Of a DNA stretch of 20,886 nt, positions 1 to 20,721 are shown piece by piece. This stretch comes from a virus. Location of the stretch: positions 1 to 20,886 of the IMG/VR virus record IMGVR_UViG_3300035670_001426; one strand, written 5' to 3'. The notes under the pieces are model-generated. The model was not told the DNA's origin and searched no databases. It saw nothing but the letters and a program-made list of their open reading frames with translations. The position numbers were made by a program, and so were the translations under genes. Position 1 is the stretch's first letter; every line of letters starts with the position of its first letter.

Positions 1-3000
1 GATATTATTGACGGTATTATACGATGTACCTTGCCCACCTGCAACACCTAATTTACCGTCTTTACCCCGCTGTAAAGGTATTATTGCCTCTGGCCCTGCT
101 TCTCCCATTAAACCAGTTGCATTACGAAGTGGGAATAAGGTGGGCGAAGTCACTATACCACCTTTAGCAAAAGGCTTTACCTTTCCATCGCTTATAACAT
201 TACCTTTTGCGCTAGGCACAGCTGCTTCTGCCCCGCCTAAAAAGCTAAGTCCTGGTATGCCAGCCACTTTAGAGAGGAACATCATGGCTATTTTATTAGC
301 CATAATTTGCATAGCACTATCTAATATAGTCATAGCGAAACTTTGCATAGCCTCGCTGGCACTTTTAGCCCCTGATATAAAGTCCTTAAATGAATTAGCA
401 AAAGCCCCTTGTAGTGTAGTCCTTATTTTGTTTGCAACAACATCGCCTGTTATACCAAGTTCCTGTAATTGCCATTGTGCTTCTTCGATATTTTTAGTTA
501 ATGACTCTGGGACTGGTTGACCCGCGCCAGCTAGGGTCTCTTTTTGCTTCTTCCAAGCATCTAATGCCGCTTGCGTGTCAGCCATTAGTTGCTTGTTAAT
601 TTCAGTTTGCCGAGAAGCCCCCTCCCATTCCCCAATAAGTCCCGCCCCCATTTGCGCCTGCACAATGCTACCGCGATGCCCTGCAAGTGACCGGCTATTT
701 TCTAATGCTTTTTGAGTAGCAAGTTCTTTATCTTTAGCACTTGCTAATGCTTCATAAAGGGTCTTTTGCTGTTTAAGCAATTCAACTTGTTTGGTGGCTT
801 CGCTAGTTTTTTGCGTTTCATAGAATGCTATAGCCCTATCTAAGTCAACAGCCTTCGCTAAGTAGTCATTATAGGTCTTTGTCGGTTTGCCCAACAGCGC
901 GTCAATAGCTGCCCCGACCGTAGCCGCAGTACTTTTAGCTTGTTTTTCAAACTCTTGCGTTAGCGCAGCATACGTTCGTTGGGCTAATGCAACGTCTTTT
1001 GCCGTTTTACTCTGAATTTCTGCCCGTTCACTGTCTAATTTAAGCAGTTCAGAACTTAAAACAAGTTCCTCTTTCTGCTCTTTAGTCATCGTGGATGATT
1101 TAACAGCAGAAGCTAGCACTTTATTAACGTAGGCTTCAGCAACTCCACCTAGCGTCTTTAATCTAGCATTTATTTCTTCTTCTGTGACTTCTGCTGCTGT
1201 CTTATTTATAGAAGTCAACCATGCCCTGACGGAAGATGGCCCCTCTTTATAAGCAAGCAATGCTAATTTAATTCTGCCAAAATTCTCTATCTGCTGGTTT
1301 AGGTAAGCCTGCCCAGCTTTTTCCGTTTCCTGCAATGCGTCTACTTGAACCTGGTTTAATTCATTTTTTGCTTGCGTAGCAATTTCATGAATTATTTTGT
1401 AGGCATTATTGAAGCGTTCCTCTAGTGCTTTTCTATTATTGCCGTTTACGCCCATACCTTCAATGTAAGCTGCGCGTGTAGTTTGCATCGGCCCAATAGC
1501 AGTGCTATCAGCATTAACTAAATTGCCTCGCTGGGCCTTAGTTAATGTTCTATAGTCAGCGGTCTTTAAGCTGCTTTCTGCTAATTTAATAGCATTAGGT
1601 AATTCATCACTAAGTAATGTTATATCCTTTTTAATAGTGGAGCCAACTTCAATGAAAGTCTGATGCAACTGATTTGCATACTCTATTTCCTCTTCTTTAG
1701 ACTTTCTACTAGCTTCTGCTATTTGTTGTTGCAATTCAAGCGTCTTCTGCAAGGCTTCTTGCGGTGATATTTCACCGATGGCAGGCGATGCCTTGGTCTT
1801 TAGAGCCTCAATGTCAGCTTCCCTGGCAGCTATAAATTCTTTTAACTGCTCCCGATGAACTTGTTGATACTTTTCAAACTGTTTACGAAGCCCTTTTTCA
1901 AATGATGATACATCTTTCTCACTCATCTTGAATGCTTCAAATAGCGCAGTATTCTCCCCTGGGGCAGTTGGCTTATAGTCTGCGACAGCCTTATTAACCC
2001 TAGTTAGCTCTGCCTCTACGACGCTCTTTATTTTCTCAAAATAAGTATGGTATACAACCCTCGGGTTAGCATTCTCCGGTATAGCTAAACTTTCCCTTGT
2101 TATAGTTTCCCCAAGTACAACTATTTGCCCTTTTTGTTCATTTAATTTCTTTATAAACTCATCGACTCTACCCTTAGCTGCTGCATTTTCATTAGACAGC
2201 ATGGGTTCAGCCGATTTAGTGTAGTCTTGAAGGCTTTTTTGTGCTTGCGTGAATGCTTCAGTTACATCTTTTTGCCTTTTAAGTAAATCAATGCGCTTTA
2301 GTGCCGCTTCTTCCTCCGGTATTTTCTGCAATTCACTTAACTTATGCAATAATACATCAGTTACAACAGCTCCTTTATCTAATTGTACATTTAAGTAGCC
2401 AAGGCTAGCACCAACAGTTGTTATAGCCAATCCAGCAGGATTAAGCACTTTAGGTAGAACGGAAATAAGCGTTTGAACTGCCGCAATACCAAGTAGCCCT
2501 TCTAGGGCACCACGAACTGCACCAATGCTTTCACTGAATTTATAGGTATCGGCAGAAGCCTCCGTGAGGGCGTCTACATACGAAGTGACCCCTTTAAGTA
2601 GCGTCTTTAGAGTGTGTTCAAATGTTCTATAAACATTATCTTCAAGTTTAGTTACTGCGGTTTGGTAATCCCCTATAGCAGCATTAAGCCCTTCTCGCGC
2701 TGATTCAAATGCACTACCGCCAAAGCGTTCGGCCATAAAGCGTGAAAACGCATCAAGCTCTTTATGGGCATATACATTTCCCTTCTTCATTTCCTCCGCA
2801 AGCTGCATAGTAGTCCTACCGGTTGCAGCAGCAAAACTAGAGAACGCGCCTGGTAGGTAGTTTGAAAGCTGTTTAACTAGCTCTTCACTTTGAATTTTAC
2901 CTTTGTTAAACATCTGTGCAATGGCTAGAAATACATGCGCGGTCTTATCCCCACTAGCATGTAATGTAGTCATTACAGTGTTTATATTCTTAAAGATTTC

Positions 3001-5019
3001 CCACGTTGTCTCGACACTCTCACCCGCCATAGTTGAGGATGCCGCGAAGTTTCTGAAGTTCTCACGCAGTGTATTCACCGCAATACCTGTCCTTTTTGCT
3101 TCCTTATCTATTTTAAGGAACTGCATGGCGGATTCAGTTGCACTACCCATAGTAGCTTCTAAGCTAGCAAAGGTAGCCTCAAGTTCAATGCCCTCTTTAG
3201 GTATTTCTCGTAAAACCTCTTGTATCTTATTAGATATAGTATAAATGCTGCCCATAATAGCGTACACCTTAGTGTAATGCGCTATGCTCTGAGCAAGGTT
3301 CATATTATAGGCATTTACCTTTTCAGGGTTAGGTTCAACCGAGGCGATTGCACGCTGTAAATTCGTTAGTTGCGCCTTATAGTTACCTATAATGGCATTC
3401 CTTGCTTGCGTAGCTTCCTCTAATGTTGTTATAGTTTTATTTTTAATCTTATCATCAATAGCGGCTAAGGCGGCAGCTAGACTTTTATAAATCTCTTTCT
3501 CACGTTCAGCAAACATGAGCAATTTAGTTTCTTTAGACTCTAGTCCTGTGCGGTATACAGATAGCTCAATTTTATTGGCCATTTGTATAGACGCAACAGC
3601 TTCTTTATTAGCCTCTTTTTGCTTACGAAGCAACGCTGCTATTGCTGCTTCCTCATCCTTATAGCGTTTAATAGGCGCATAAGCCTCGATAGCTCTTGCG
3701 CTTCGTTCTTCCATAAGGGCATTTAGCTTCCTTTGTACCGTACTTTCCCTAGCAATCTTATTCTCTAAGTATTGCTGATTTACTTCATCGCGTTTAGCCT
3801 CATACTCTCTAGTAATAGCTAGCAAGTCTTGCTGATATTTTGTCTGCAATGCCTTAAGGCTATCATTGCCCCCTAGCATAACAGCCTGTTCGTGTGCTAG
3901 CGATAGCTCTACTGCTTTTTCATTATAACGCAGATATTGCGTAATCCATTCTTTTTTCTTATCATAAATTTCCTTTTCAGTTTTAATTGCGTCAATTCTA
4001 GCTTGAGTTTCACTTTGTATGGCCTTTTCAGCCTTCTCTGCACTTAACGTAACGCGATTCATCTCATTAGTTAACGCGGTTGTGTCAGCTGTTGGGCCTT
4101 CTTTTTGCGCGTTAGCAATGAGTGTTTTTATCGCAATATCAGTATTTTTACGGATTGTTAGAATGTCATGAGCGCGTTTTAGCTCTATCCCCCGTATAGT
4201 GTCTTCCCCATGTTTGGCAATAGCTATTTCAACGTCTATTTGCCCTCTATAGTCATTTATGTATTCCTTAAATAAATTACTCGTACTTTGCAGTGCTTGC
4301 TTGAATTTATCTTGTTCTGCCAGTGTTGCTTGCGCCTGCGCCTGTGCTAAACGCAATTTATCCATTGAATCGGCCACAAGGCTAGCTCTCATAGCATTTG
4401 CAAATGATACTAGCTTTTCCGGGTCTTCCGATTTATAAATTATTTCTTCTAACTCTTTAAGGTCAAGTGCCAACGAACGCATAATAGCTTTACGCTGGTT
4501 GGCATAACTGCGTATAATCCCTATACGGGTCGTTTCTCCATTTAATATAACCCTTGCGCTTTCAGATTCAAGCAATTCTTCCTGGTTAAGCAAGGCATTA
4601 CTTGTTTTCTTAAACTCACTTACAGTGGCTTTACCTCGCTCCGCTAGTTGAGCCGTAATATGTTGCGTCGTTTGCTCTTCCCCTGTGCGTAATTTACTCT
4701 CAAGGTCTCGATACTCGGACATATTAAGTATCTGCTCCTTTGATAATAGCATTTTAGCTATTCCCATATCCTGCGAGTGCAAGGCATACTTAACTTCTCC
4801 TATAGCCCTTGCTAGCGACCGTAAGTTATTTGCTTCTAATTTAAGGTCGTGGGAGAAGAAAGATTTACCACCGTCACCCTTCGATAATGTACTATAGAAG
4901 TCTTTTACATTTACTTTAAGGTCTTTGAGAAGTACAAGCAGTTCGCCGAGTTCTTCCGCAGAAGTGCCTGTCTCAGCAATAACTGAAAGTTTATAAGTGC
5001 TTGTTGTTTCAGTCGCCAT
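1..5019 (-). CDS. H: Tail tape measure protein (C-terminus beyond window)
   Basis: The frame is open from ATG 5019-5017 to the left edge, at least 1673 codons; I read it codon by codon and found no stop. Residues about 590-790 match the phage tape-measure domain (TMP_2 type), including a stretch beginning AQMFNKGKIQSEEL and continuing to YLPGAFSSFA. A hydrophobic Ala/Gly/Leu segment follows at about 834-877, as in lambda-type tape measures. The flanks are long, charged and Ala/Lys/Glu-rich, probably coiled coil. Near the edge, at about 1635-1660, lies the signature GLMGEAGPEAIIPLQRG, typical of the C-terminal region. The protein sets tail length and is thought to be threaded through the tube into the host envelope. 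An AGAGG site lies just upstream, and the start overlaps the end of GT by 11 nt, suggesting translational coupling. Homologues of lambda M, L, K, I and J would be expected further left. Confidence 0.95.
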   Translation of the reverse strand, partial: MATETTSTYKLSVIAETGTSAEELGELLVLLKDLKVNVKDFYSTLSKGDGGKSFFSHDLKLEANNLRSLARAIGEVKYALHSQDMGIAKMLLSKEQILNMSEYRDLESKLRTGEEQTTQHITAQLAERGKATVSEFKKTSNALLNQEELLESESARVILNGETTRIGIIRSYANQRKAIMRSLALDLKELEEIIYKSEDPEKLVSFANAMRASLVADSMDKLRLAQAQAQATLAEQDKFKQALQSTSNLFKEYINDYRGQIDVEIAIAKHGEDTIRGIELKRAHDILTIRKNTDIAIKTLIANAQKEGPTADTTALTNEMNRVTLSAEKAEKAIQSETQARIDAIKTEKEIYDKKKEWITQYLRYNEKAVELSLAHEQAVMLGGNDSLKALQTKYQQDLLAITREYEAKRDEVNQQYLENKIARESTVQRKLNALMEERSARAIEAYAPIKRYKDEEAAIAALLRKQKEANKEAVASIQMANKIELSVYRTGLESKETKLLMFAEREKEIYKSLAAALAAIDDKIKNKTITTLEEATQARNAIIGNYKAQLTNLQRAIASVEPNPEKVNAYNMNLAQSIAHYTKVYAIMGSIYTISNKIQEVLREIPKEGIELEATFASLEATMGSATESAMQFLKIDKEAKRTGIAVNTLRENFRNFAASSTMAGESVETTWEIFKNINTVMTTLHASGDKTAHVFLAIAQMFNKGKIQSEELVKQLSNYLPGAFSSFAAATGRTTMQLAEEMKKGNVYAHKELDAFSRFMAERFGGSAFESAREGLNAAIGDYQTAVTKLEDNVYRTFEHTLKTLLKGVTSYVDALTEASADTYKFSESIGAVRGALEGLLGIAAVQTLISVLPKVLNPAGLAITTVGASLGYLNVQLDKGAVVTDVLLHKLSELQKIPEEEAALKRIDLLKRQKDVTEAFTQAQKSLQDYTKSAEPMLSNENAAAKGRVDEFIKKLNEQKGQIVVLGETITRESLAIPENANPRVVYHTYFEKIKSVVEAELTRVNKAVADYKPTAPGENTALFEAFKMSEKDVSSFEKGLRKQFEKYQQVHREQLKEFIAAREADIEALKTKASPAIGEISPQEALQKTLELQQQIAEASRKSKEEEIEYANQLHQTFIEVGSTIKKDITLLSDELPNAIKLAESSLKTADYRTLTKAQRGNLVNADSTAIGPMQTTRAAYIEGMGVNGNNRKALEERFNNAYKIIHEIATQAKNELNQVQVDALQETEKAGQAYLNQQIENFGRIKLALLAYKEGPSSVRAWLTSINKTAAEVTEEEINARLKTLGGVAEAYVNKVLASAVKSSTMTKEQKEELVLSSELLKLDSERAEIQSKTAKDVALAQRTYAALTQEFEKQAKSTAATVGAAIDALLGKPTKTYNDYLAKAVDLDRAIAFYETQKTSEATKQVELLKQQKTLYEALASAKDKELATQKALENSRSLAGHRGSIVQAQMGAGLIGEWEGASRQTEINKQLMADTQAALDAWKKQKETLAGAGQPVPESLTKNIEEAQWQLQELGITGDVVANKIRTTLQGAFANSFKDFISGAKSASEAMQSFAMTILDSAMQIMANKIAMMFLSKVAGIPGLSFLGGAEAAVPSAKGNVISDGKVKPFAKGGIVTSPTLFPLRNATGLMGEAGPEAIIPLQRGKDGKLGVAGGQGTSYNTVNNI

Positions 5020-5796
5020 AAGAGCCTCTAATAATGCTTACAAAACCATCATGTATGTATTGAACGCTAACTAAAGTTTCCCTCAATGGAATATCGAAGT
5101 CTTTTATTAGCGCAAGCAACATCGTGGTGTCTATAGTATAGTCACTTTTGGTAAAGGGGTACAGAATCTTGTAAAGTTCAAAGACTTGTGAATTGCATTC
5201 CCATAGGTCGATAACTATCGTTTCGTCTTTTACGTCAGTAGTTACGATAGTATTGTCGCTATCAATATCTAGTAGAGCCTCTAACGCTTCTTCATCGCTT
5301 TTATTATTCAATAGTTCCTTTCGCGGGGGAGAGGAGGCTCTACCTAAAGCCTCCCCCGCTTGTCTCAGTTTCCCAGACTATCTTCTTTATAAGAAGATGC
5401 GTTAGTGATTGCGATGTTAAATGTGGCGAAAATTGCTGTTTTCCACGGCAAACTTGCGAAGTATTTATCAATCATAACTTCCAAGCATTCCTTGGGGGTT
5501 TCCCAAACACCTGGCAAAGCCTCTGCCGTTCTAGTGTCAACGATGAGTTCTTCAACTTTACCCGTCTTTGTGTCTTCAATTTCTACTTTTGCGTTACAAA
5601 TGTAGGCAATCTCAGCCTTAACAACGGCATCAAAATCAGTCAGGTTTTGCCAAGAGACAATTTTTTCTTCCATCGTTGGAATGTCATAGCGATGAAACCC
5701 TACGCTTATGCTATCTTGCGTATTCGCAGCATCTTTCGCGGTCACTTTAAGTTCAATGACGGGTGTTTGCAATTTAACGTACAACTTCTTTGACAT
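5009..5796 (-). CDS. GT: Tail assembly chaperone GT, -1 frameshift fusion
   Basis: Predicted 262-residue product: the 143 residues of G plus 119 residues in the -1 frame, entered at heptamer GGGAAAC (5374-5368) just before the G stop. The extension starts LRQAGEALGRA and continues through an acidic segment to ...IIRGSYGD. It contains an alpha-helical part with VIDLWECNSQVFELYKIL, like the T half of lambda gpGT. The lambda proteins are about 140 and 279 residues, so both lengths fit. From the family: G coats the tape measure during assembly and the T part recruits tube protein. The T-frame ORF has only a TTG at 5311 as a possible start and no evident ribosome site, so it is most likely reached only by frameshifting. 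Its stop overlaps the tape measure start. Confidence 0.85.
5323..5374 (-). promoter_or_regulatory. Programmed -1 ribosomal frameshift signal
   Basis: Read on the minus strand: slippery heptamer GGGAAAC at 5374-5368 in the frame G GGA AAC (pattern X XXY YYZ, as in lambda G GGA AAG). The zero-frame stop TGA follows at 5367-5365. After an 8-nt spacer (5367-5360) comes a GC-rich hairpin: GCGGG (5359-5355) pairs with CCCGC (5327-5323), and GGAGGCT (5354-5348) pairs with AGCCTCC (5339-5333). There is a 5-nt bulge on the 3' side and an 8-nt loop. Heptamer, frame, spacer and stem all fit a classic -1 frameshift site. Efficiency cannot be judged from sequence. Confidence 0.85.
5365..5796 (-). CDS. G: Tail assembly chaperone G (unshifted product)
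   Basis: 143 residues starting at ATG 5796-5794, with a modest AGGTAG ribosome site. The sequence is beta-rich at the N-terminus (KLYVKLQTPVIELKV) with a helical C-terminal half (ECLEVMIDKYFASLPWKTAI). I do not recognise it from residues alone. The assignment to lambda gpG rests on length (lambda G is about 140), position directly before the tape measure, and the frameshift signal at its end. The last codons are CTG GGA AAC TGA, so the slippery heptamer touches the stop codon. It probably binds and keeps soluble the long tape measure before tube polymerisation. It lies 8 nt after the holin-like gene in the same transcript. Confidence 0.8.
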   Translation of the reverse strand: MSKKLYVKLQTPVIELKVTAKDAANTQDSISVGFHRYDIPTMEEKIVSWQNLTDFDAVVKAEIAYICNAKVEIEDTKTGKVEELIVDTRTAEALPGVWETPKECLEVMIDKYFASLPWKTAIFATFNIAITNASSYKEDSLGN

Positions 5797-5804
5797 TTCT
5801 CTAC

Positions 5805-6086
5805 CTATCTGTGTTTATTTGGTAATGCGGGACAGCTTTTCGGCACTTCTATATCTTCTGGCATAGTGTACTTTATCTGATGGACAACTTGCGTAAGTTC
5901 CCTAATGACCTCAGTATGGTCTGCCATAGATTTTTCAAAACATTCACGCCATTCTGCCCGTTCTTCTCTTTGCATATTCAATAAGTGTAGTATAATACTC
6001 TTACCTACCATCCAAATTGTTAAGAACAAGGCTCCAATGACCATTCCGGCTAGGCCGAAGTTTTGCCAGGGTGTAATTTCTAACAT
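5805..6086 (-). CDS. Small one-TM protein, holin-like (BhlA/UviB-like pattern)
   Basis: 93 residues. A single hydrophobic segment at about 11-32 (GLAGMVIGALFLTIWMVGKS) is followed by a charged, probably coiled-coil stretch with QREERAEW and a polar C-terminus. One N-terminal TM helix plus a charged helix is the architecture of BhlA/UviB-type small holins, but the match is by shape only and it could be another small phage membrane protein. The start at 6086 is supported by an AGGTG site 5 nt before the ATG. It is the first gene of the minus-strand operon, 8 nt before G, and lies directly behind the putative promoter at 6104-6132. A holin would make membrane holes and let the endolysin reach peptidoglycan. 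Confidence 0.5.
   Translation of the reverse strand: MLEITPWQNFGLAGMVIGALFLTIWMVGKSIILHLLNMQREERAEWRECFEKSMADHTEVIRELTQVVHQIKYTMPEDIEVPKSCPALPNKHR
5969..5996 (+). promoter_or_regulatory. Weak candidate promoter for the plus-strand packaging operon
   Basis: A perfect TATAAT lies at 5991-5996, with TTTGCA (4 of 6) 16 nt upstream. It is inside the divergently transcribed holin-like gene, about 150 bp before terS. A second weak candidate is GATAAT at 6100-6105, with no good -35 box. The 59-bp divergent gap has no strong plus-strand promoter, so packaging genes may be read from inside the neighbouring gene or need a phage activator. Confidence 0.25.
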
Positions 6087-6145: not shown

Positions 6146-6751
6146 ATGAGCAATGATACTAACCCTACGCTAGTAGATAACATTAACTTAAACTCTAAGG
6201 TTAACGTAAATACACTAGCTTACATTCTCGGTCTCTCTCGCGGCGCACTATACAATGATGCTAAGTCAGGTAAGTTTGGCGGTAAAACATTAAGTGACCA
6301 AACTTACATGGAGGCAATACAGAATTATAGAAACTACTTCACTTCTGGTGGCCGTGCCCATTATGCAAATGCAGCGGCTAATGCCGAGGGGGCCACCCTT
6401 GTTGAGCGTCAGCTAACGCAAAAGTTGCGGGCCGATAAAGCAGCGGAGGTTAAAACGTGGTTAACCATTGCTGAAAAGCGCAAAAAACTCTTATATGAGC
6501 CAGAACTTCGGCGTTTCTATGAACCCTTTATTCATATTATAAAAAATGGAATAGTCTCAATTTCATTAGATTTCCCTGAAACACGAACTAAAGTAGACAA
6601 CGTGTTAAACTCTTTAGCAGAATTTGGCTCTGTCATTATAACACAGGCCGAAGAGGACTCGGATAAATTTCTTACGGAAATGCTGGAACTTGACCTTGAC
6701 AGCGATATAGCAAAATTGTCATTTATTGCAGAAGAAGTAGAAACGCTATAA
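6146..6751 (+). CDS. Terminase small subunit (Nu1-like)
   Basis: 201 residues. A helix-turn-helix is visible at about 19-41 (VNVNTLAYILGLSRGALYND), the N-terminal DNA-binding element expected for a protein that recognises the packaging start. A long charged helical region follows (QLTQKLRADKAAEVKTWL), and an acidic C-terminal part would contact the large subunit. Length is close to lambda Nu1 (181). It directly precedes the GpA-type large subunit (3 nt between stop and next ATG), which strongly supports the call. The ATG at 6146 has only a weak purine-rich site upstream (AAGACGAG). By analogy with lambda, a packaging site could lie just upstream, but only 59 bp of noncoding DNA is present there. 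Confidence 0.85.
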   Translation: MSNDTNPTLVDNINLNSKVNVNTLAYILGLSRGALYNDAKSGKFGGKTLSDQTYMEAIQNYRNYFTSGGRAHYANAAANAEGATLVERQLTQKLRADKAAEVKTWLTIAEKRKKLLYEPELRRFYEPFIHIIKNGIVSISLDFPETRTKVDNVLNSLAEFGSVIITQAEEDSDKFLTEMLELDLDSDIAKLSFIAEEVETL

Positions 6752-6754
6752 ATT

Positions 6755-8731
6755 ATGAGAACCATTTATAACGCACCAGAAAGAGCCTTGCTTGGGTCTT
6801 TATTTAAGATATTCCAGAGAGTTCCAGCAATGTCTACCATTGATTGGGCTAAAAAGTATCGCCTTATTTCAAAGAAAGAAACATCTTTTGGCGAAGGTAA
6901 GTTCGATGCTAACTTAACCCCTTATATGGAATACGTCTACGATTGCTTGGATAATCCTAGAATATCTACGATTGTAGCTAAAAAGAGCGCACGCATAGGG
7001 TGGACAGAAACCATCAATAACTATAGGGGAAAGCGTATTCACGTTGACCCAACCACGATGTTATTAGGGTTTCCCACCCTTACTGCCGCTAAAATCTTTG
7101 CTAAGGAAAAGTGGAGAGTATTCATTGAAAATGTACCTGTGCTTCGCACCCTTGTCAATCAAGGTATTGCAGAAAATAAAAAGTCATTTTATGACTATGA
7201 CTTTCCAGGGGGGCACTTGCGACTTTCAACCCTCGGTAGTATTACTAATCAGAAAAGTTCAAATTTAGAGTATATTGAAGTAGAAGAGCCTGATGATGCC
7301 CCCGATGACGTGTCTGGCCAGGGCGACACCTTTGCTAACCTTAAAGAACGGCAAAAACTTGTCCCTCTTATAAAGCGTAAGTTTATTTTTGGCGGCACAC
7401 CAACTTTTAAGGACTTTAGCCGGGTTGAAAGTGCTATTAAAGCGTCAAATTGGATGATATTTAAGGCAGAATGCCATAATTGCGCGGCACTTGTGCCAAT
7501 GGATGGCAGTTCATTTAACAACCTTGTCTATGATGTTTATCCTAATAAAAAGATAGATGAAATATACGGGGTAAATGACCCAGATAGTGCTAAATTCATC
7601 TGCCCTCATTGCGCGGCTGAGTGGACTTTTGAACAGAAAAACGCTAATATAATTGCCGGCAAAAAGTATGGTTTTACCGACCACACCGGCAACTTCTCTA
7701 AGGGGTGGCATCCTAAAAATGAAGGTGTCATAGATACCTTCGGGTTTGACTTTAGCGAAATGCTGTGCCCTTTTTCCGGTAGCTCATTTGTAGAAATGGC
7801 TAAGGCACGTATACTTGCTGAGAGGGAGTTAGCTATAGGTAAAGAACTTCTTATGAAGTCTTTTGTTAATAATAAGATGGGAGAACCCTATTCGTCCGGC
7901 TTTAATGCTATGGAGCCTGAGGAAATGAGAAAATATCGCAGAAACTATCAAGAGGGGGTAGTTCCAATGGAAGCCGTGATAGCTTTTGCTGGTATTGACG
8001 TGCAGGATAATAGGTTTGCCTATGTTATACGCGCTTGGGGGCGTGATGGAACATCCTATTTAGTAAAGTGGGAAGAAATTTATGGAAATACCCTAAATGG
8101 TGATGATAAAATATGGGATGAACTGGCCCGCAGAGTAGTGACAGTATCACTGCCCCATGCAAGCGGTAAGGAAATGCCGGTTACAATGGCGTCTATAGAT
8201 AGTGCATTTAATACCGAACTTGTCTATCGTTTTGTCTATAGAATGCACGAAGATTACCCAGGGGTTTTACTTTGCTGTCGCGGCGTAAAGGACTTACGTT
8301 TTAGTGAAGATGAAATTTATAGGGAACCTTCTATGTTTGAAATAGCTACAACAGCGCAATATAGAAGAACATTGGCAGAACGCCTCGGTGTTACCGTGTA
8401 CCACGTTGGGACACATAAAGCGCATGGGGAGATACTTAGAAGAATGATGCTCGCAGTGCAGGCATCAAAATCTCCTGAAAATTACCGTTCCGACATTATG
8501 TATTGGAATGACCAAAGTTACGGTGGCTATGAAGAACAAATAGTATCTTGCCGTAAAATCTTTACGATTGACCATAATGGGAATACTAAAGAGAATTATA
8601 AATTGATTCCAGGTAAGCGTAAAGAAGCAATAGACTGTGAAAAACTTGCACTTCATGCTGCTATTGCTCATGGGATACGACAATATACCCCTGAGCGTTA
8701 TGCAGAACTTGAGCGATACTATTGGAGTTGA
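6755..8731 (+). CDS. Terminase large subunit, GpA family
   Basis: 658 residues, close to lambda gpA (641). It is the ATP-driven DNA translocase and nuclease that cuts the genome and packages it through the portal. The Walker A-like segment VAKKSARIGWTE lies at about 74-85 (lambda also has a deviant KSAR form here). The acidic Walker B-like segment EYIEVEEPD is at about 172-180, and GGTPT at 213-217 is a likely coupling segment. Two CxxC pairs (C240/C243 and C283/C286) form a probable zinc-binding unit. The C-terminal RNase H-like nuclease shows FAGIDVQDN (D415) and ASIDSAFN (D482). No strong ribosome site is seen; it starts 3 nt after the terS stop, so translation is probably coupled. Confidence 0.97.
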   Translation: MRTIYNAPERALLGSLFKIFQRVPAMSTIDWAKKYRLISKKETSFGEGKFDANLTPYMEYVYDCLDNPRISTIVAKKSARIGWTETINNYRGKRIHVDPTTMLLGFPTLTAAKIFAKEKWRVFIENVPVLRTLVNQGIAENKKSFYDYDFPGGHLRLSTLGSITNQKSSNLEYIEVEEPDDAPDDVSGQGDTFANLKERQKLVPLIKRKFIFGGTPTFKDFSRVESAIKASNWMIFKAECHNCAALVPMDGSSFNNLVYDVYPNKKIDEIYGVNDPDSAKFICPHCAAEWTFEQKNANIIAGKKYGFTDHTGNFSKGWHPKNEGVIDTFGFDFSEMLCPFSGSSFVEMAKARILAERELAIGKELLMKSFVNNKMGEPYSSGFNAMEPEEMRKYRRNYQEGVVPMEAVIAFAGIDVQDNRFAYVIRAWGRDGTSYLVKWEEIYGNTLNGDDKIWDELARRVVTVSLPHASGKEMPVTMASIDSAFNTELVYRFVYRMHEDYPGVLLCCRGVKDLRFSEDEIYREPSMFEIATTAQYRRTLAERLGVTVYHVGTHKAHGEILRRMMLAVQASKSPENYRSDIMYWNDQSYGGYEEQIVSCRKIFTIDHNGNTKENYKLIPGKRKEAIDCEKLALHAAIAHGIRQYTPERYAELERYYWS

Positions 8732-8736
8732 CTGTT

Positions 8737-9012
8737 ATGACTGCCGCAGAAATTAAAGTAGCATTAGACACTGTTAATACCGCTATAGCGCAGCTACTAT
8801 CAGGTAAGCGCGTGCTAGAACTTCGTGTAGGTAGCGGGAACTTTTTTCGTCAGTTTCGCTACGGTGAAGTTACGCTAGACGCATTAAAGGAATATAGAAC
8901 GGAATTGATGCAAATGTTGCAAACTATAGATGCAGCTAATGCTCCCCCGTCTTTTAGAACCTACGCAACCGTACCACTTGTTGTTAAGAAGGCCAGAGCA
9001 TGTCTAATGTAA
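8737..9012 (+). CDS. Head-tail connector, gpW family
   Basis: 91 residues from ATG 8737. I chose this over the TTG at 8722 because a GGAG site (8724-8727) lies 9 nt upstream of the ATG, while TTG 8722 would overlap that site. The core, ALDTVNTAIAQLLSGKRVLE followed by VTLDALKEYRTELMQML, has the gpW pattern: a helix, GKRV turn, beta hairpin and closing helix. gpW plugs the portal after packaging and provides a surface for tail attachment. The position between terminase and portal is the same as in lambda (A-W-B). The C-terminal about 25 residues extend beyond the family core. It overlaps the portal start by 13 nt. Confidence 0.85.
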   Translation: MTAAEIKVALDTVNTAIAQLLSGKRVLELRVGSGNFFRQFRYGEVTLDALKEYRTELMQMLQTIDAANAPPSFRTYATVPLVVKKARACLM

Positions 9013-10487
9013 TTGATGACGTTTACACCATTCTGCATCGTGGGGCGACGGCTTTCGACGGTGCATCCACTAAATATAAGGAGGATATGAATAATGTCTT
9101 CTTTGGTTCGCCTGACCAGATTATAAGTAGGGAATTGTTGCTGCTTCAGCAACGTAGCTTACATGCAATTCGCAATAACGGTTATGCTAAAATTGCAAGA
9201 GATAAGTATGTGACCAATGTTGGGTCATTGAAAGTGCTTTGGCATGATAATAAAAATAGACGGCATAACCGTATGCAAGATTTATGGGATGCCTTTGCAG
9301 ATAACCCTTCTTTAGACGGCTATGGAACGCTTTGTAATTTACAAAGCCTTTGGCACTCAAGTCTTTTTTCTACTGGAAATGCTTTCACTAGAAAGTTAAT
9401 CCGGAAGGGGCGTAAAAATAGCATTGTCCCTCTTGTATTAGAGCCTATACAGAGTGAATTGCACGATTTATTCTATTTTGGCGATGGAAGAAAAACTGTT
9501 AGGCATGGGATCGGTTTTACCGATAATGTGCCTGACACGTATTACTTTAGGTTGCAAGCCTACCAAGAGTTTCCAATTATAAATAATACGCAAAACATAA
9601 CCGCTATACCATCTAATGAAGTTTTGCATTTATTTAATAGAGAGTTGCCAGGGCAATGGTTGGGCGTGCCCGTCCTTAGTAGCATTTTAATCCCTCTATA
9701 TGAGTTAGATGAACTCATGGATGCTACTGTGGCGAGGCAAAAAGCATCGCAAGCAATAAGTTGGATTATCACTAATAGCAATCCTACTAATATGATGCCA
9801 GTAGGTGTACCTATTATTGATAAAGCAGCAAATAGTAAAGAAAAGGTTGTATTTAAGGCAACCGGGTCAAATGTGCAATACCTTAATAAAGGGGAGAATA
9901 TAACCTTCCATCAGGGGGCAGACATTGGGCCTAACTTTGTTAAATTAGCTGAACTTGAGCTTCGTAGAATATCTAACGCATGTCACGTGCCCTACCATCA
10001 GCTAACGGGAGACACAAATGGCATTGACTTTAGTACACTTCGGGCACTTTTGATTGAATTACGTTCAAGAATAGAGTATACTCATCACTTTCTAACCATA
10101 CCGCTTGGGCTAGCCCCGTTAACTGCATATTTTAAGGAACTAGCGCAGCTATACTACCCAAATGTGAAGAATGCCACCCCGTCGTACCAGCTTCCGCGCT
10201 TTTACGGAGTCGATGACTTGAAGGACGCTCAAGCCGATGTACTTGAGATACAGAATGGGCTAGCTACATTAGATAGTAAATTGCAGGAAAGGCATACTAC
10301 GTTTGAGGCGATTGCTGCTGATAGGGAGCGGTTAAAGGAACTAGGATTGGATAATTTATTATTCCCAAATGGGGCAGGTAGGCCAGAGGGCAATGGCACA
10401 GGTAGGCCAGGAAGTAATGGCTCAGGTGTAACAACACCCCCTATAAAAGGGGTTACAAGTGCTACAAGTGGTGAAAACGATGTATGA
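9000..10487 (+). CDS. Portal protein, lambda gpB family
   Basis: 495 residues (lambda gpB is 533). Family features: an N-terminal helical part with NNGYAKIARDKYVTNVGS at about 59-76; the segment SNEVLHLFNRELPGQWLGVP at about 205-224, corresponding to the conserved H-F..R.GQ.RG.P region; a stem and helical region (LDELMDATVARQKASQAIS); and GDTNGIDFSTLRALL in the distal part. The last 40 residues are Gly/Pro/Ser-rich low complexity (GRPEGNGTGRPGSNGSG) and may be a flexible tail. The dodecameric portal is the vertex through which DNA enters and leaves. An AAGG site lies 7 nt before the ATG. It overlaps the protease start by 8 nt. Confidence 0.95.
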   Translation: MSNVIDDVYTILHRGATAFDGASTKYKEDMNNVFFGSPDQIISRELLLLQQRSLHAIRNNGYAKIARDKYVTNVGSLKVLWHDNKNRRHNRMQDLWDAFADNPSLDGYGTLCNLQSLWHSSLFSTGNAFTRKLIRKGRKNSIVPLVLEPIQSELHDLFYFGDGRKTVRHGIGFTDNVPDTYYFRLQAYQEFPIINNTQNITAIPSNEVLHLFNRELPGQWLGVPVLSSILIPLYELDELMDATVARQKASQAISWIITNSNPTNMMPVGVPIIDKAANSKEKVVFKATGSNVQYLNKGENITFHQGADIGPNFVKLAELELRRISNACHVPYHQLTGDTNGIDFSTLRALLIELRSRIEYTHHFLTIPLGLAPLTAYFKELAQLYYPNVKNATPSYQLPRFYGVDDLKDAQADVLEIQNGLATLDSKLQERHTTFEAIAADRERLKELGLDNLLFPNGAGRPEGNGTGRPGSNGSGVTTPPIKGVTSATSGENDV

Positions 10488-11667
10488 AAGAATACTAAAT
10501 AGGCTAGCTGCTCCTCTGTTGCTGGATGAAACAAAATTTAAGGATATTCATGATAATTTAATTTTACCGTTGACATTAGGGGAAACCCCTTCTGGAATTG
10601 CTAAAGTAACGCATGAAGCAACGAGCGAGGCAGGTAAAATTAAAGTTATAAATGTAAAGGGAACCCTTACTAGCGGTAATGCTGCCGGTGATAGCGGTAC
10701 TAGAAGCTATACAACTATCGCTAGAGATATAAAAACAGCTATTGCCGATGGCTACCGCAGTATTGCATTTAACTTTTCAACTTATGGTGGTGAAGCTGAC
10801 GGAGCTATGGGACTGGCTAAATTCATCAACTCACTACCGTCACTGTATGACGCAAAGACTATTGCAATTATAGATGGCCCTTGCTGTTCCGCAGGTTACC
10901 TGCTGGCTAGTAACACGCAAGAAATTCTATGTACTGCCGGGGCGGAACTTGGGTCAATCGGCGTAATTGCAAGCATCCCCAATAGCGTTAGCAGTGATGA
11001 AAAGACGGGAACAACCTGGACAATACTGCGAAGCCATAGTGAAAAAGCATTGGGCAATCCGCACGAACCTATTTCTGATGCGGCATTAGCCTCTATTCAG
11101 AAAAAAGTTGACAACTTAGCTAAAGTTATGATAGATACTATTGTAACTGGGCGTCCTAAATTGTCTAAAGACATTATTGCTACCTTAAATGGCAAGACTG
11201 TCCTGGGAGACGAGGCTATCTCACTTGGTCTAGCCGATGGCTTGATTGAAAGTGTAGATATAACATTAGAAATGTTAAATAGACGGTGTAAAAATATGAG
11301 TTCTTCTTTTGATAATTCATCTGCACAAGTTGACGAGACCCTGCGTCTTCGTGCGGAACTTGAAGCGGTGAAAGCTGCTTCATCTGTAGCTATTAGTAAA
11401 GCAGTGGCCGATGAACGCGCACGCTGCCTGGCCATTTTGGATGCGGCTAAGACGTTTGGCCTGTCGTCAGACGTTGCCATTAAGCAAATTAACTTATCTT
11501 CAAGCATTGAGCAAAGTGTAGCTATGTTTGAAGCGGTTAAGGAAGCTATACAAATGGCGAATCCAACTCCTGTCGCTGCTACGGCTACCCCGCAAGTAGC
11601 AGAAAGTGCCTCTAGCCCATTCGCTGAATGGATTAAAGGTAATGAATTTTTGGCATCAATTAAGTGA
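10480..11667 (+). CDS. S49 (SppA-like) head maturation protease, lambda gpC-like
   Basis: 395 residues from ATG 10480, preferred over upstream in-frame GTGs because GGTGA lies 5-6 nt before it and the ATGTATGA overlap with the portal stop is typical coupling. The protease domain has a crotonase/Clp-like fold: FNFSTYGGEADG, then IDGPCCSAGYLLAS with nucleophile S137, then ELGSIGVI, then SHSEKALGNP with probable catalytic K189 (Ser-Lys dyad of S49). After about residue 272 comes a helical, Ala/Glu-rich part that doubles as the scaffold from an internal start. Lambda gpC (439 residues) has the same fused layout. It cleaves capsid proteins during procapsid maturation. The residue before the nucleophile is Cys rather than the usual Ala. 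Confidence 0.93.
   Translation: MYERILNRLAAPLLLDETKFKDIHDNLILPLTLGETPSGIAKVTHEATSEAGKIKVINVKGTLTSGNAAGDSGTRSYTTIARDIKTAIADGYRSIAFNFSTYGGEADGAMGLAKFINSLPSLYDAKTIAIIDGPCCSAGYLLASNTQEILCTAGAELGSIGVIASIPNSVSSDEKTGTTWTILRSHSEKALGNPHEPISDAALASIQKKVDNLAKVMIDTIVTGRPKLSKDIIATLNGKTVLGDEAISLGLADGLIESVDITLEMLNRRCKNMSSSFDNSSAQVDETLRLRAELEAVKAASSVAISKAVADERARCLAILDAAKTFGLSSDVAIKQINLSSSIEQSVAMFEAVKEAIQMANPTPVAATATPQVAESASSPFAEWIKGNEFLASIK
11296..11667 (+). CDS. Nested scaffold protein (Nu3-like) from internal start in protease gene
   Basis: An in-frame ATG at 11296 inside the protease gene is preceded by GGTG with a 7-nt spacing. It would give a 123-residue protein starting MSSSFDNSSAQVDETLRLRA, rich in Ala, Glu and helix formers, ending in EWIKGNEFLASIK. 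Lambda Nu3 is made in exactly this way from the 3' part of gene C and scaffolds gpE assembly. The start lies at the junction between the protease domain and the helical tail, where it is expected. Inference from architecture and ribosome site; no direct proof from sequence. Confidence 0.6.
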   Translation: MSSSFDNSSAQVDETLRLRAELEAVKAASSVAISKAVADERARCLAILDAAKTFGLSSDVAIKQINLSSSIEQSVAMFEAVKEAIQMANPTPVAATATPQVAESASSPFAEWIKGNEFLASIK

Positions 11668-11675
11668 GGTGACTT

Positions 11676-12476
11676 ATGGCTAATTGGAATGGTGGGTGGC
11701 GGTCATACCCGAACCGCCCGACTATCGCATCTTTGCGTACTTTCTTTAGGGCAGAAGCGCATAGCACTAAACCGCTTACTATTAAAGCAGGTCAAGTGCT
11801 TCGTAAACATAGCTTTGTTGAAACTGACGCAGCAGGCTTGGGTGTAGCTCATACCGGTATGGCTGAAAAAGCCCTGCTTACTTTTACCGCAGGCGTAGGT
11901 GCAGCAAAGACTGTTATCATCGCCGGTCTTACCTTCACCACTACTGGCATCGTAAGTGCCGCCGATGTAGTTAAGGCATTTAGCGGCCTTACTGACGGCA
12001 TGACGGCGGCAGAAGCTAATGCGGCTAACGCTGTGGCAGGTGGAAGTTTCACCGCAGGCGCACTGACAGGGTTTCATACCTATAAGAGCAGCACTGCTAA
12101 TAGCGTTCTGTTCGTTTCAACGTCACCTAACACTAATGTAACTGACCTTGCTGATGCAGGTAACTCAACGGTCACTAGCGTCACCGTCGTAGCATACCCT
12201 AATCCGCAAAAGAAGATTGCCGGTGTTCTGTTGATGGATGTTGACGCTAGTGCGGGTGACGTTGACACGACTGTGTATAAGGAAGCTAGCTTTTATGCAA
12301 GTGCCCTTGTGTGGGAAGCTGACGCAACCGATACTATTGAACTTGCTGACGGCACTACTGTAGCTTGTACTGATTACAATGTCGGTGCATTCACTGATGC
12401 TGCAAAACGTAAGTTTGTAGAGAACACTGAATTTGAAGAACTTGGTATTTTGAAAGCAGGGGAAGATTATGTCTAA
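11676..12476 (+). CDS. Capsid decoration protein, gpD-like, with inserted beta domain
   Basis: 266 residues, about twice the usual size for the gpD family (lambda D is 110). The N-terminal half of the decoration fold is at about 32-62 (KPLTIKAGQVLRK...GVAHT). The second half resumes at about 177 (QKKIAGVLLMDVDASAGDVD, then YKEASFYASALVWEAD) and ends with FEELGILKAGEDYV. Between them, about residues 66-175 form a Thr/Ala/Val-rich beta module (IIAGLTFTTTGIVSAADVVK ... SVLFVSTSPNTNVTDLAD). It stabilises the expanded capsid by trimerising on its surface, so the insertion is probably displayed outward. GAGGTGA lies 5 nt before the ATG, one of the strongest ribosome sites in the window, fitting high expression. 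It overlaps the major capsid start by 8 nt. Confidence 0.85.
   Translation: MANWNGGWRSYPNRPTIASLRTFFRAEAHSTKPLTIKAGQVLRKHSFVETDAAGLGVAHTGMAEKALLTFTAGVGAAKTVIIAGLTFTTTGIVSAADVVKAFSGLTDGMTAAEANAANAVAGGSFTAGALTGFHTYKSSTANSVLFVSTSPNTNVTDLADAGNSTVTSVTVVAYPNPQKKIAGVLLMDVDASAGDVDTTVYKEASFYASALVWEADATDTIELADGTTVACTDYNVGAFTDAAKRKFVENTEFEELGILKAGEDYV
11871..12200 (+). other. Inserted S-layer-like beta module in decoration protein
   Basis: Codes residues about 66-175 of the decoration protein. The pattern is a strand with G-L-T-F-T-x-T-G, a helix with VSAADVVKAFSGL, a spacer, then FTAGALTGFHTYKSS and a strand ending SPNTNVTDL. This pattern is familiar from beta-strand repeat proteins of bacterial surfaces. 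Related segments occur in the tail tube protein (15195-15482 and 16293-17033). Boundaries are approximate. Confidence 0.6.
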
Positions 12477-13692
12477 TATGCAATTTGCTGATCCGTATTC
12501 AGCACAAAAGATTCTGTCCGGGGTAATTCGTGCCCTGAATGATGGACAGCCGAAGCGGCCTAATTGGTTGCAGTCATTCTACCCAACGAATGCTGCTCTC
12601 ATCAATGATAGAACTGTTAACTTCGACCAGCAGCTATCAGTTCGCAATGTCATGGGTACGTTTGCATTGCCGAATGCTGACGTTAACCCTGTTTCATTGC
12701 CGACCTATGGGCATAAAGAGCATAGCTTCAGCTACGCTAAGGAAAGTGTAACTGACGGTGATGATGATTTTGAAACGCTCAATATGCGCGAAATGGGGCA
12801 GCAGTTCGGCCAACCTAACATTGCCGCTAATATGGCTATGCGGTTGAATGCTAAGTTTGCAGCAGTTGAACAGCGTTTTGAAAACTTGTTTGAACTGGTT
12901 GCTTCGCAAATTCTGCTTTATGGCGGTTATGGTGCAAAAAGCGAGTATTACCCGCTTTATGTATATGACTTTGAACGGTCTGTATGTAATAAATACAGTG
13001 ACATTAAGACGGATAAGGATACTCTTGTCTCTAGTGTAAACTTGACTACTTCACCTGTCACTGCTCCTTGGGATGCTTCACGAGTTATCCTGCCCGTTAT
13101 TGCTTCTGCCGGTGCTGCTTATACCGCCGGTGAGAAAGCCTGGACGAAAGCAAACGTCGATGCTGGCACCGCTACGCCCTATAAAGACTTGTTGCAAATG
13201 ATCTTGACTTGTAATGAGTGGTCGCGTGCAGATATGGTTCACATGAGCCAAGATGCTTATGAAGTTTTCAATTATGATATTGAAAAGAACTATAAGGAAG
13301 CGGCTGTAACCACCACGCTTGCTATGCTGCAAATTGAACGGGATATTTTGCCGCGTATGCAAAGTGTCGATGACTTGCACTTTCAGCGCAACATTAGCCT
13401 TGGTGGTGGCATTAACCTACCCATTTACACTTATAAAGCTATTTATCATAACCGTAATACTGGTGAGCGCACTCGCTACATTGGTAATGGTTGGGTTAGT
13501 GTTATTCCTAACTCAGGTTATGTTAAAGCCTACGGTAGAATTATGCACCGTAAAGCCAACTATTCCGCTATGCCGCGTTGGATAAATAGCTGGATGGATG
13601 AGAAAACGGGTGTGCAGCAGTGGGAATGGCATACTAACTTTGTTATGGCAAATTCTGCTATAAACAGCCTCGTTACGTGGAAAGTTGCATAA
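12469..13692 (+). CDS. Major capsid protein, lambda gpE family
   Basis: 407 residues (lambda gpE is 341), with the HK97 fold expected from the family. The N-terminal arm holds NFDQQLSVRNVMGTFALPNA. A long helix follows, with MREMGQQFGQPNIAANMAMR and then FAAVEQRFENLFELVASQIL, the spine. The peripheral domain contains CNEWSRADMVHMSQDAYEVF, like the conserved segment near the A-domain, and the C-terminal part reads RYIGNGWVSVIPNSGYVKAYGR. It builds the icosahedral shell around the scaffold. The call also follows from position directly after the decoration gene (lambda D-E). The GGGGAAG site is close to the ATG. A 12-bp gap separates it from the next gene. Confidence 0.93.
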   Translation: MSNMQFADPYSAQKILSGVIRALNDGQPKRPNWLQSFYPTNAALINDRTVNFDQQLSVRNVMGTFALPNADVNPVSLPTYGHKEHSFSYAKESVTDGDDDFETLNMREMGQQFGQPNIAANMAMRLNAKFAAVEQRFENLFELVASQILLYGGYGAKSEYYPLYVYDFERSVCNKYSDIKTDKDTLVSSVNLTTSPVTAPWDASRVILPVIASAGAAYTAGEKAWTKANVDAGTATPYKDLLQMILTCNEWSRADMVHMSQDAYEVFNYDIEKNYKEAAVTTTLAMLQIERDILPRMQSVDDLHFQRNISLGGGINLPIYTYKAIYHNRNTGERTRYIGNGWVSVIPNSGYVKAYGRIMHRKANYSAMPRWINSWMDEKTGVQQWEWHTNFVMANSAINSLVTWKVA

Positions 13693-13704
13693 ACTAACAC
13701 GGTC

Positions 13705-14337
13705 ATGAAAAACACAGGCGATACCAAGGTTCTTGATAACTTTATCGGCTTAGTTGACCTTCAAACTATGACGAAAAAGAATGAAAAACGCACAGTTACC
13801 CTACTTAAGGATATAGATGCAATAATTCATTCTGCTGTCAATCGCCGGTATCGCCTGCCCGCCAATATGACTACCGCATCCGTTATTAGGGGGAGGCTTC
13901 CCTCTAATACCGGTAGAACCGGTAGGTATATTTATAAGAATGGCATAACGTATGGGTATAAATCCATTCCTCTTAGCCGCTTTCTTACGTCAGAATACAT
14001 TGGAAATATCGAACCAATCGCGGAAAAGACTAAGCCAGGACTTGTCCATCGAGTGCAGATACGACGCAAAGGAGGTGAAAAAATATCGTATGGTAAATTG
14101 GGCTTTGGTGGCTTCATACCGCGAGAAGGCAAAATAGACGGTAAAAAGGTTAGAAATAAAAACTTTCCTAAATGGGGCATTACTATGTGGGAAAGAAATA
14201 GTCGCAGCGCGTATGAGATACATCCGCTTCGTGGGCCGTCTATATCGCAAATGGTAGCTACTACTATGAAGGAAGATGCCTCCCTTAAGGGGAGGATAGA
14301 GAAACTGATGCTAGATAGGCTTATTTCATATAAATAG
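13705..14337 (+). CDS. Minor tail / neck protein, lambda gpZ-like
   Basis: 210 residues (lambda Z is 192), basic. An N-terminal helical part contains KDIDAIIHSAVNRRYRLP. The centre and C-terminus have KPGLVHRVQIRRKGG, then KLGFGGFIPREG, then KWGITMWERN and IHPLRGPSISQMVATTM. The R-rich beta strands, a central GF-I segment, an [LM]-[FW]-x-R strand and the final L-x-G-P-S-I-x-x-M are the pattern of gpZ and HK97 gp10-type neck proteins, which complete the tail end that docks to the head. No strong ribosome site is seen (CACGG before the ATG), so it may be translated at a low level, as expected for a minor protein. Similarity is judged by eye. Confidence 0.65.
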   Translation: MKNTGDTKVLDNFIGLVDLQTMTKKNEKRTVTLLKDIDAIIHSAVNRRYRLPANMTTASVIRGRLPSNTGRTGRYIYKNGITYGYKSIPLSRFLTSEYIGNIEPIAEKTKPGLVHRVQIRRKGGEKISYGKLGFGGFIPREGKIDGKKVRNKNFPKWGITMWERNSRSAYEIHPLRGPSISQMVATTMKEDASLKGRIEKLMLDRLISYK

Positions 14338-14354
14338 CTTTAATTAGGTTAATT

Positions 14355-14663
14355 ATGGTAGAAGACATAGCATTAGTATTGTCAGTGTTTGGCGACCTTT
14401 TCGAGTGTGACGCTGGCCGCTTTCGTGGTATACTTGGGACGGAATTGGTCACCCTAGCAGGCGGGGCGTATGAACTTGCCTCGCAATCAATAAGTATACA
14501 AGTTGCTACGCAAACAGTATATGACTATGATATAGGGGCAGGCACCACGCTTACATATAGTAAAGTAGGCATGACCTATAATTTAACTGTGAACAGCTTT
14601 ATAGATAGCTTAAATGGTTGGACTGAGCTTTTCTGCGATGCGAGTAGCGTAGAAGATGTATAA
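14355..14663 (+). CDS. Head-tail joining protein, FII-like
   Basis: 102 residues (lambda FII is 117). The layout is a short N-terminal part with GDLFECDAGRFRGILGTE, a strand ISIQVATQTVYDYDIGAGTT, and a closing LTVNSFIDSLNGWTELFCD. This resembles the FII family plan: a short barrel protein with a self-contained beta core and a near-terminal Gly-Trp-Thr segment. FII-type proteins bind the gpW/portal plug and present the surface to which the tail attaches. In lambda FII comes before Z; here it comes after the Z-like gene. AGG lies 7-8 nt before the ATG. The stop overlaps the next gene by 8 nt. Moderate confidence; similarity is weak. Confidence 0.5.
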   Translation: MVEDIALVLSVFGDLFECDAGRFRGILGTELVTLAGGAYELASQSISIQVATQTVYDYDIGAGTTLTYSKVGMTYNLTVNSFIDSLNGWTELFCDASSVEDV

Positions 14664-15066
14664 TGAAAGCACTCTTATCAATAGGTTGCAGACTGAAACT
14701 GGTTACACTGTAACGTATAGCCCTGGTAGGCAGGTTGATTTACTTTCAACCAATGAAACACTACCGAGGTTATATGTGGGCCATTTAGGTATTCAGCTTT
14801 TTGATAAGAATACTTTATTCAGTAACGGTTATGTGGAGTATGAGAATCCTGAAATACTCCTAACGGAAGTTAACTATGTCTGCTTGCGTAGCAACTGGGC
14901 AGAAGTTAGAACGAAGATTAGAGCAGCCTATACAGGTTACTCGCCGTTTCCCGATGACGCAGATTATTCCAGTATCACTTTTGTTGAAGCTATGATAAAA
15001 GGTGAAACTAATACAAAAGTATGGTGGAATGAAGTGGTCGGGCTTGTTATGCCTAGAATTTCTTAG
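14656..15066 (+). CDS. Tail terminator protein, gpU-like
   Basis: 136 residues (lambda U is 131). I do not see a diagnostic motif. The evidence is size, an alpha/beta composition with strands such as RLYVGHLGIQLF and EILLTEVNYVCL, a helix with NWAEVRTKIRAAY, and position directly before the tail tube gene, as in lambda U-V. gpU-type proteins form a hexameric ring that stops tube growth and connects to the head. The start overlaps the previous gene by 8 nt (ATGTATAATG), which indicates coupled translation. It could instead be another neck protein. Confidence 0.55.
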   Translation: MYNESTLINRLQTETGYTVTYSPGRQVDLLSTNETLPRLYVGHLGIQLFDKNTLFSNGYVEYENPEILLTEVNYVCLRSNWAEVRTKIRAAYTGYSPFPDDADYSSITFVEAMIKGETNTKVWWNEVVGLVMPRIS

Positions 15067-15083
15067 TTAATGAGGTTTATGCT

Positions 15084-17414: not shown

Positions 17415-17415
17415 T

Positions 17416-17856
17416 ATGGCTCTCATTACTTCTACAGAATGCCTTAAAATTTTCGGGCATCCTAGTTCTGAGAAGTACATGAAAATGTGGGATGTGCCTA
17501 CTCCGTTGGAGATAGGCGCAATCCCAAAGCGTATCTATTGTTCTACTTTGCTTCCTCTTGCATTAGAGGAAGCATTTAGAAACTTAATAGACGCTGACAT
17601 TGTAAATGAACTACGAACGTGGGATGGCTGCTATAACCTTCGCCTTAAAAAAGGTGGAAGCACCTATAGTATGCACGCATGGGGGCTTGCGATAGATGTC
17701 AATGCAGCATGGAATGGTTTTGGTAAGCCGCCAAAACTATCGCAGGCATTTGTAGATTGCTTCACTAGCGAGGGTTTTGAGTGGGGAGGTAAATGGAAAA
17801 CTCCAGATGGTATGCACTTTGAACTCAGTAAAGAGTTCATCCTTAAACATAGCTAA
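17416..17856 (+). CDS. M15-family peptidase, probable endolysin
   Basis: 146 residues, full length for a small phage D-Ala-D-Ala carboxypeptidase or L-Ala-D-Glu endopeptidase. The zinc motif STYSMHAWGLAIDVN supplies H87 and D94. The second motif, FEWGGKW...PDGMHFEL, supplies H134, with D131 as the likely catalytic acid or base by analogy with the family. No signal peptide is present, so release would depend on a holin. The gene begins 1 nt after the tube gene (GAAGGG ribosome site) and lies among structural genes. It could be a lysis endolysin or a virion-carried peptidoglycan hydrolase used at entry. Confidence 0.88.
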   Translation: MALITSTECLKIFGHPSSEKYMKMWDVPTPLEIGAIPKRIYCSTLLPLALEEAFRNLIDADIVNELRTWDGCYNLRLKKGGSTYSMHAWGLAIDVNAAWNGFGKPPKLSQAFVDCFTSEGFEWGGKWKTPDGMHFELSKEFILKHS

Positions 17857-17867
17857 ATTGGTGATTT

Positions 17868-18731: not shown

Positions 18732-18756
18732 AAAAAGGATGAAAAAGAGGTAAAAT
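18728..18756 (+). promoter_or_regulatory. Putative sigma70-like promoter for the accessory gene cluster
   Basis: TTGAAA (18728-18733), 17-nt purine-rich spacer, TAAAAT (18751-18756). Hexamers and spacing are identical to the minus-strand candidate at 6104-6132. It overlaps the stop codon of the previous gene and lies about 33 bp before the next ATG, where a new transcript would be expected. Caution: the spacer is A/G-rich and contains a GAGGT that could be a ribosome site instead. Confidence 0.45.
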
Positions 18757-18784
18757 ATGGCCTTAAAATCCTTGAAAGGCCATA
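18756..18784 (+). promoter_or_regulatory. Perfect 9-bp inverted repeat before the next gene
   Basis: TATGGCCTT (18756-18764) and AAGGCCATA (18776-18784) are exact reverse complements, separated by 11 nt. It begins on the last base of the putative -10 box and ends 4 nt before the ATG at 18789, covering the AAGG that would act as that gene's ribosome site. It could be an operator, an mRNA hairpin limiting translation, or both. There is no T-run, so it is not an intrinsic terminator. Confidence 0.5.
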
Positions 18785-19434: not shown

Positions 19435-19452
19435 CGCAAATTAGGTGGCGTT

Positions 19453-19812: not shown

Positions 19813-19813
19813 C

Positions 19814-20218: not shown

Positions 20219-20257
20219 AGTGTACCCACCTTAGCCAAAGCATACTTAAAAACAATT

Positions 20258-20720: not shown

Positions 20721-20721
20721 T

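Follow-up and report, generated by a model that had tools for sequence, protein, structure and literature searches.

Directly upstream of a tape measure gene in a 20,886-base IMG/VR virus fragment (the window, by which we mean this whole stretch of DNA) lie a short ORF and, overlapping it in the -1 frame of the same strand, a second ORF. The question raised by this locus is whether the two ORFs are separate genes or are read together by some of the ribosomes. Our analysis of the sequence and its relatives leads us to conclude, with high confidence, that a programmed -1 ribosomal frameshift yields two tail assembly chaperones from one start, comparable to the G / GT pair of phage lambda.

Arrangement of the G, T and tape measure frames

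The following features, all on the minus strand, define the locus in the window:

1–5019, minus strand: tape measure protein (PF20155 TMP_3, E 1.5e-16; PHROG tape measure, E 6.6e-38)
5009–5368, minus strand: predicted T extension, -1 frame; 119 codons, the first being CTG at 5368, and a stop
5309–5321, minus strand: possible weak internal start of T, AAAGGA at 5321–5316 followed by TTG at 5311–5309
5323–5359, minus strand: GC-rich hairpin, likely frameshift stimulator, with perfect 9-bp outer arms (5351–5359 and 5323–5331)
5365–5796, minus strand: G, putative tail assembly chaperone ORF of 143 aa, zero-frame stop TGA at 5367–5365
5368–5374, minus strand: slippery heptamer G_GGA_AAC, in frame and abutting the G stop; XXXAAAC in all seven lineages compared

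The 3' end of the G ORF reads CTG GGA AAC TGA, and the heptamer GGGAAAC (5374–5368) touches the stop of the 143-residue ORF in the correct frame, just as the earlier note had claimed. Its second claim, that the shifted frame enters the next ORF and gives lambda-like sizes of 143 and 262 residues, was reproduced from the sequence as well: the predicted -1 product GT comprises 143+119 = 262 residues, ends at 5009 and carries the junction peptide ...DSLGN-LRQAGE.... Because a stop closes the -1 frame one codon before the heptamer, entry into this frame must happen at the heptamer itself. The tape measure gene, which is truncated by the contig end, begins with an ATG at 5019 and shares 11 nt with the 3' end of T.

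According to the mechanism that we propose, most ribosomes would terminate at TGA 5367 and release the 143-aa G. When GGA occupies the P site and AAC the A site of the heptamer G_GGA_AAC, a minority would slip back by one base, to GGG and AAA, and translate on in the -1 frame to yield GT (262 aa); the hairpin that follows after 8 nt, and perhaps the stop codon too, would promote this slip. In analogy to lambda, the tape measure protein would be coated by G and the major tail protein would be recruited by the T portion of GT, with both G and GT departing before tail completion. The slip itself, its rate and these lambda-like protein roles are inferred.

The profile search of G and T against known families that had been suggested as a check gave no Pfam or PHROG match for either window protein, and G had no match in the phage genome collection. 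Scans of the fused and the G alignments against Pfam and PHROG yielded marginal matches only, with one relative matching PF08748 (Phage_TAC_4) at no better than E 0.038. The AlphaFold model of G (pLDDT 83.2) found no significant Foldseek match in the PDB (E at least 0.27). Among the 1000 best Foldseek chains, VIA-align ranked YqbN (3klu) highest (Z 3.9, 99 residues, 7.3 Å) and put 2ob9, the tail assembly chaperone of HK97, in fifth place (Z 2.6, 86 residues, 7.2 Å), both of them weak matches, and in BFVD the model matched the 'Tape measure chaperone' of Klebsiella phage Solomon (probability 0.97). The absence of a Pfam or PHROG match for G or T, together with the weak fold matches, weighs against a lambda-type assignment. 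Nevertheless G is most likely a tail assembly chaperone, on the basis of position, conservation, the frameshift and the weak fold matches, and not of sequence profiles.

Comparing the strand blocks 1–6086 and 6146–20886 of the window, we found that the G-T-tape measure block and the head genes occupy opposite strands and that the block lies at a long distance from the gene of the candidate major tail protein (15084–17414), as is also the case in the L005 lineage. In L007, L012 and L072–L074 the block shares a strand with this candidate gene and follows it. A module inversion is likely. That this gene does not adjoin G in the window, as it does in L007, L012 and L072–L074, again weighs against the lambda-type assignment. 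Just upstream of G, at 5805–6086, a 93-aa ORF encodes a hydrophobic stretch followed by a charged, possibly coiled-coil part and has no family match.

Outside the tail module, a 146-aa ORF at 17416–17856 of the window resembles, by eye, endolysins of the M15 peptidase type (SMHAWGLAIDVN, DGMHFE). The gene after the portal (10459–11667 in the window), compared with its counterparts in L007, L009, L010 and L012, occurs with two unrelated-looking kinds of N-terminus and similar scaffold-like ends, which suggests exchange of the prohead protease among relatives.

The heptamer in frameshift-type relatives

Direct searches with G returned near-identical copies only, and relatives were thus reached via the terminase (52–65% identity) and then with a fused-protein profile. 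In this way seven lineages of the two-ORF type were obtained: the window with L004 and L006; L005 and L015; L007 and L008; L012; L072 (= L034); L073 (= L035); and L074 (= L039). The G domains of the six other lineages are 22–38% identical to that of the window. A search of the contigs of the genome collection with the fused-protein profile gave no match, and the terminase profile matched once in that collection, in a Lake Pavin MAG assigned to Candidatus Roizmanbacteria (L039 / L074, JAPLYQ010000142.1). Of 286 genomes of the phylum this is the single carrier, too few for a host assignment, and the match may reflect a binning error or may be a hint at the host.

Conservation of the heptamer in homologues, another check proposed by the earlier note, was borne out: all seven lineages carry an in-frame XXXAAAC at the G stop, and no homologue was found that keeps both ORFs and lacks the heptamer. 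GGGAAAC is present in two lineages and AAAAAAC in five; the gap between heptamer and zero-frame stop is 0 nt in six lineages and 3 nt in L012. After the slip the -1 frame opens with L-(I/R)-(E/Q)-x-G in every lineage. The X positions switch from G to A at all three sites together, which would argue for selection on slipperiness and not on amino acids.

In-frame slippery heptamers occupy 0.39% of codon positions (0.0039 per codon) in the genome set, so by chance about 0.8% of genes should carry such a heptamer at a distance of 0 or 3 nt from the stop; among 216 ORFs other than these tail genes we observed 3 such cases. Finding the heptamer in 7 of 7 lineages would have a p of about 2e-15 under independence, an assumption that does not hold for these lineages. 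Given the rarity of heptamers per codon, the seven-lineage pattern is not due to chance, even allowing for shared ancestry. The bare heptamer, on the other hand, is not rare: GGGAAAC occurs seven times in the whole window against 2.0 expected from shuffles (0 of 100 shuffles reached seven), and it is hence position and frame that carry the signal. The other copies inside G and T are out of frame. Among three near-identical genomes 21 sites vary in G and T; that all of them fall outside the signal is not significant (p about 0.17).

An in-frame AAAAAAC directly before a stop was also seen at a different locus. In L014 (6273–7513) a protease-like ORF ends in this way and a scaffold-like part continues in the -1 frame. 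In genomes related to L014 the protease-like and scaffold-like parts form one ORF, and the scaffold of L014 also has an ATG of its own; the break is possibly a second frameshift or a homopolymer sequencing error.

Internal start of T, downstream hairpin and alternative readings

The earlier note had stated that T has no plausible start of its own. This was confirmed for L007 and L073, where the entire T frame is devoid of ATG, GTG and TTG and T therefore cannot be separately initiated, but it does not hold for the window: TTG 5311–5309, codon 19 of the T frame, stands four bases behind AAAGGA, a weak but plausible start from which the ORF caller lists a 100-aa ORF. This TTG with its Shine-Dalgarno-like sequence weighs against the frameshift. 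In the window itself frameshifting to GT might thus be accompanied by a minor amount of free T initiated at TTG 5311, a dual route that is unlikely on balance, since its TTG and AAAGGA are shared by the near-identical group of window, L004 and L006 and the six remaining lineages showed no counterpart start preceded by a signal of this kind, and since a TTG with 4-nt spacing is a weak start.

A good deal less probable is a wholly separate T gene, in which re-initiation or a start at the same TTG would give a 100-aa protein and the heptamer would be incidental. The weak hairpin in some relatives leaves scope for such other modes of expression, and the TTG at codon 19 with AAAGGA four bases upstream is what the reading rests on; it is at odds, however, with the lack of any start codon in the T frames of L007 and L073 and, before codon 91, in that of L005. 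At the protein level, moreover, the stretch ahead of the TTG is conserved (AGEAL, in the window as in L005), the heptamer is retained in all seven lineages, and the sister clade described below encodes the G-T fusion in one frame. Frameshifting at the heptamer remains our preferred explanation for the expression of T.

The hairpin (5359–5323) starts 8 nt after the heptamer (spacer 5367–5360) and has a stability of about -22 to -23.8 kcal/mol. RNAfold gave two near-equal forms, a minimum at -23.8 and a centroid at -23.2 kcal/mol; the latter, with 13 pairs and a 5-nt bulge, agrees within one pair with the 12-bp GC-rich stem, 5-nt bulge and 8-nt spacer described from the letters in the earlier note. 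Published criteria for bacterial stimulators call for a hairpin 4–10 nt past the motif, a first pair G-C and at least 7.6 kcal/mol, and the window hairpin lies within all of these (PMC4066793). Its advantage over shuffles of its own sequence is only moderate (z -1.9, 7 of 200 shuffles equally good), because the region is GC-rich and shuffles also fold well.

The stem turned out not to be general. It is strong in three of the seven lineages, namely the window, L005 (z -3.6) and L012 (z -5.1), and moderate in L072; in L007, L073 and L074 the downstream fold is no better than shuffles. That a hairpin is absent or weak there weighs against the frameshift. Downstream RNA structure is frequent, but not universal, in lambda-type G/GT pairs. 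The stop codon directly after the heptamer may partly offset weak stems.

A GC-rich and stable hairpin could also act as a transcription terminator or attenuator instead of a frameshift stimulator, but this is highly improbable here, as the hairpin is followed by GAAAGGAACUAUUG and not by a U run, is located within the open stretch of the -1 frame and upstream of the tape measure gene, and has the 8-nt spacing from the heptamer that fits a stimulator. Finally, an assembly or sequencing error that breaks one continuous GT gene, of the kind which does exist in the set (the terminase frame of L037 is broken mid-gene at 324–2304, probably by an assembly indel), is refuted by conservation, as seven lineages, which stem from different metagenomes and in several cases comprise more than one contig, share the position of the break and the type of heptamer.

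In-frame fusion in the sister clade and relation to known systems

A different arrangement was found in L010, L011, L029, L032, L033 and L038, which are without a frameshift and carry one ORF of 241–246 aa, then a separate G-like gene of 147–148 aa and then the tape measure gene; in some sister-clade genomes a small gene (92–207 aa) separates the GT-like from the G-like gene. In-frame GT-like and separate G-like genes of this clade are located at:

L048, 2652–4137
L049, 2994–4363
L068, 2376–3873
L069, 2899–4089
L070, 2872–4063
L071, 2352–4183

In hhalign the single ORF matched the profile of fused GT from one end to the other (probability 97.6, E 3.6e-12), and the separate gene matched the G profile (probability 98.7, E 2.8e-16). 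When the fused ORF and the separate G of the sister clade were directly compared by profile, no significant similarity appeared, and the relation between the two is drawn through the frameshift-type family by these two profile matches. The AlphaFold model of the fused ORF (pLDDT 52) was too poor to use; the strand/helix order at its N-terminus resembles that of G.

At the shift point the sister ORFs read E-(Q/D/A)-N-L-(F/I)-(E/L)-(I/C)-G, compared to (G/K)-N-L-I-E-A-G in the frameshift product, with E-Q-N-L-F-E-I-G aligned to L-G-N-L-I-E-A-G across the junction. The sister ORF spans the same junction in one frame, and what is predicted as the frameshift product of the window is accordingly made in the sister clade as a single continuous chain. 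The codons used there in the sister clade (CAA AAC TTG, CAG AAT TTG, GAT AAT CTT and others) destroy the heptamer.

The terminase tree places the frameshift and the two-gene types in two separate groups (support 93/97 and 85/75). Its outgroup, Marinobacter phage PS3, is too distant (branch 3.7), and the tree gives no direction of change; that frameshifting would be the older state is suggested by its wide occurrence in tailed phages, not by the tree. We consider it probable that, within one terminase family, the frameshifted GT of one clade is replaced in the sister clade by two genes, an in-frame GT and a separate G, the ratio being set by initiation instead of slippage.

The lambda G / GT pair is reportedly treated by Xu, Hendrix and Duda (2004). 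Shared with the window are the gene position directly before the tape measure gene, a -1 slip on XXXYYYZ near the G stop and similar product sizes (PMC5009743). The window differs from lambda in having no detectable sequence similarity to a curated chaperone family, in the tail module on the strand opposite the head genes, and in the heptamer, which ends in AAC and not in AAG. While the earlier note was right about this last difference, an AAC-ending heptamer is not novel, with precedents in KL1, Colossus, phiCbK and HCTV-1/-2. For Burkholderia phage KL1 (gp18/gp19) a GGGAAAC right before TGA, products of 142 and 264 aa and a possible downstream stem-loop were predicted, nearly the same design as in the window, likened here by design and not by sequence relationship; KL1 has a gene between GT and tape measure, the window none (PMC3483164). 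Caulobacter phages Colossus and phiCbK carry GGGAAAC and AAAAAAC, respectively (PMC3556154), as do haloarchaeal HCTV-1 and HCTV-2 (PMC5009743). These are the same two tail-chaperone heptamers as in our lineages, with the same GGG/AAA exchange between relatives, in other viruses and hosts; the likeness concerns the heptamer and leaves the stem aside. In E. coli an A-site AAC is far less slippery than AAG, since the A-site tRNA re-pairs poorly, which weighs against the frameshift (PMC4066793; PMC5009743).

Replacement of the frameshift by two genes has a parallel in T4-like phages, whose chaperones, as far as the account of Vladimirov, Gautam and Davidson (2022) is cited in PMC10885494, resemble the sister clade in being encoded by a short gene and by a long one that carries the fusion in frame. 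The T4-like phages are contractile-tailed, whereas here the frameshift and two-gene states are found in sister clades of one terminase family. Microbacterium EA phages show a mixture of frameshifted and separate chaperone genes (PMC7302621).

The window site is a well-supported further example of a mechanism known since phage lambda, and it adds a phage family without profile-level similarity to known chaperones to the users of lambda-type frameshifting. T and GT would be missed or mis-called by annotation in all frameshift-type relatives, and the conserved placement of XXXAAAC together with the junction sequence can find such genes where homology search fails. An A-site AAC, a codon of low slipperiness in E. 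coli, is common to the seven lineages, which makes them suitable for testing how bacterial signals compensate, with a strong stem, the adjacent stop codon and differences in host tRNA or ribosomes as candidate compensators. With the frameshift clade and its two-gene sister, two solutions for setting one and the same protein ratio can be compared.
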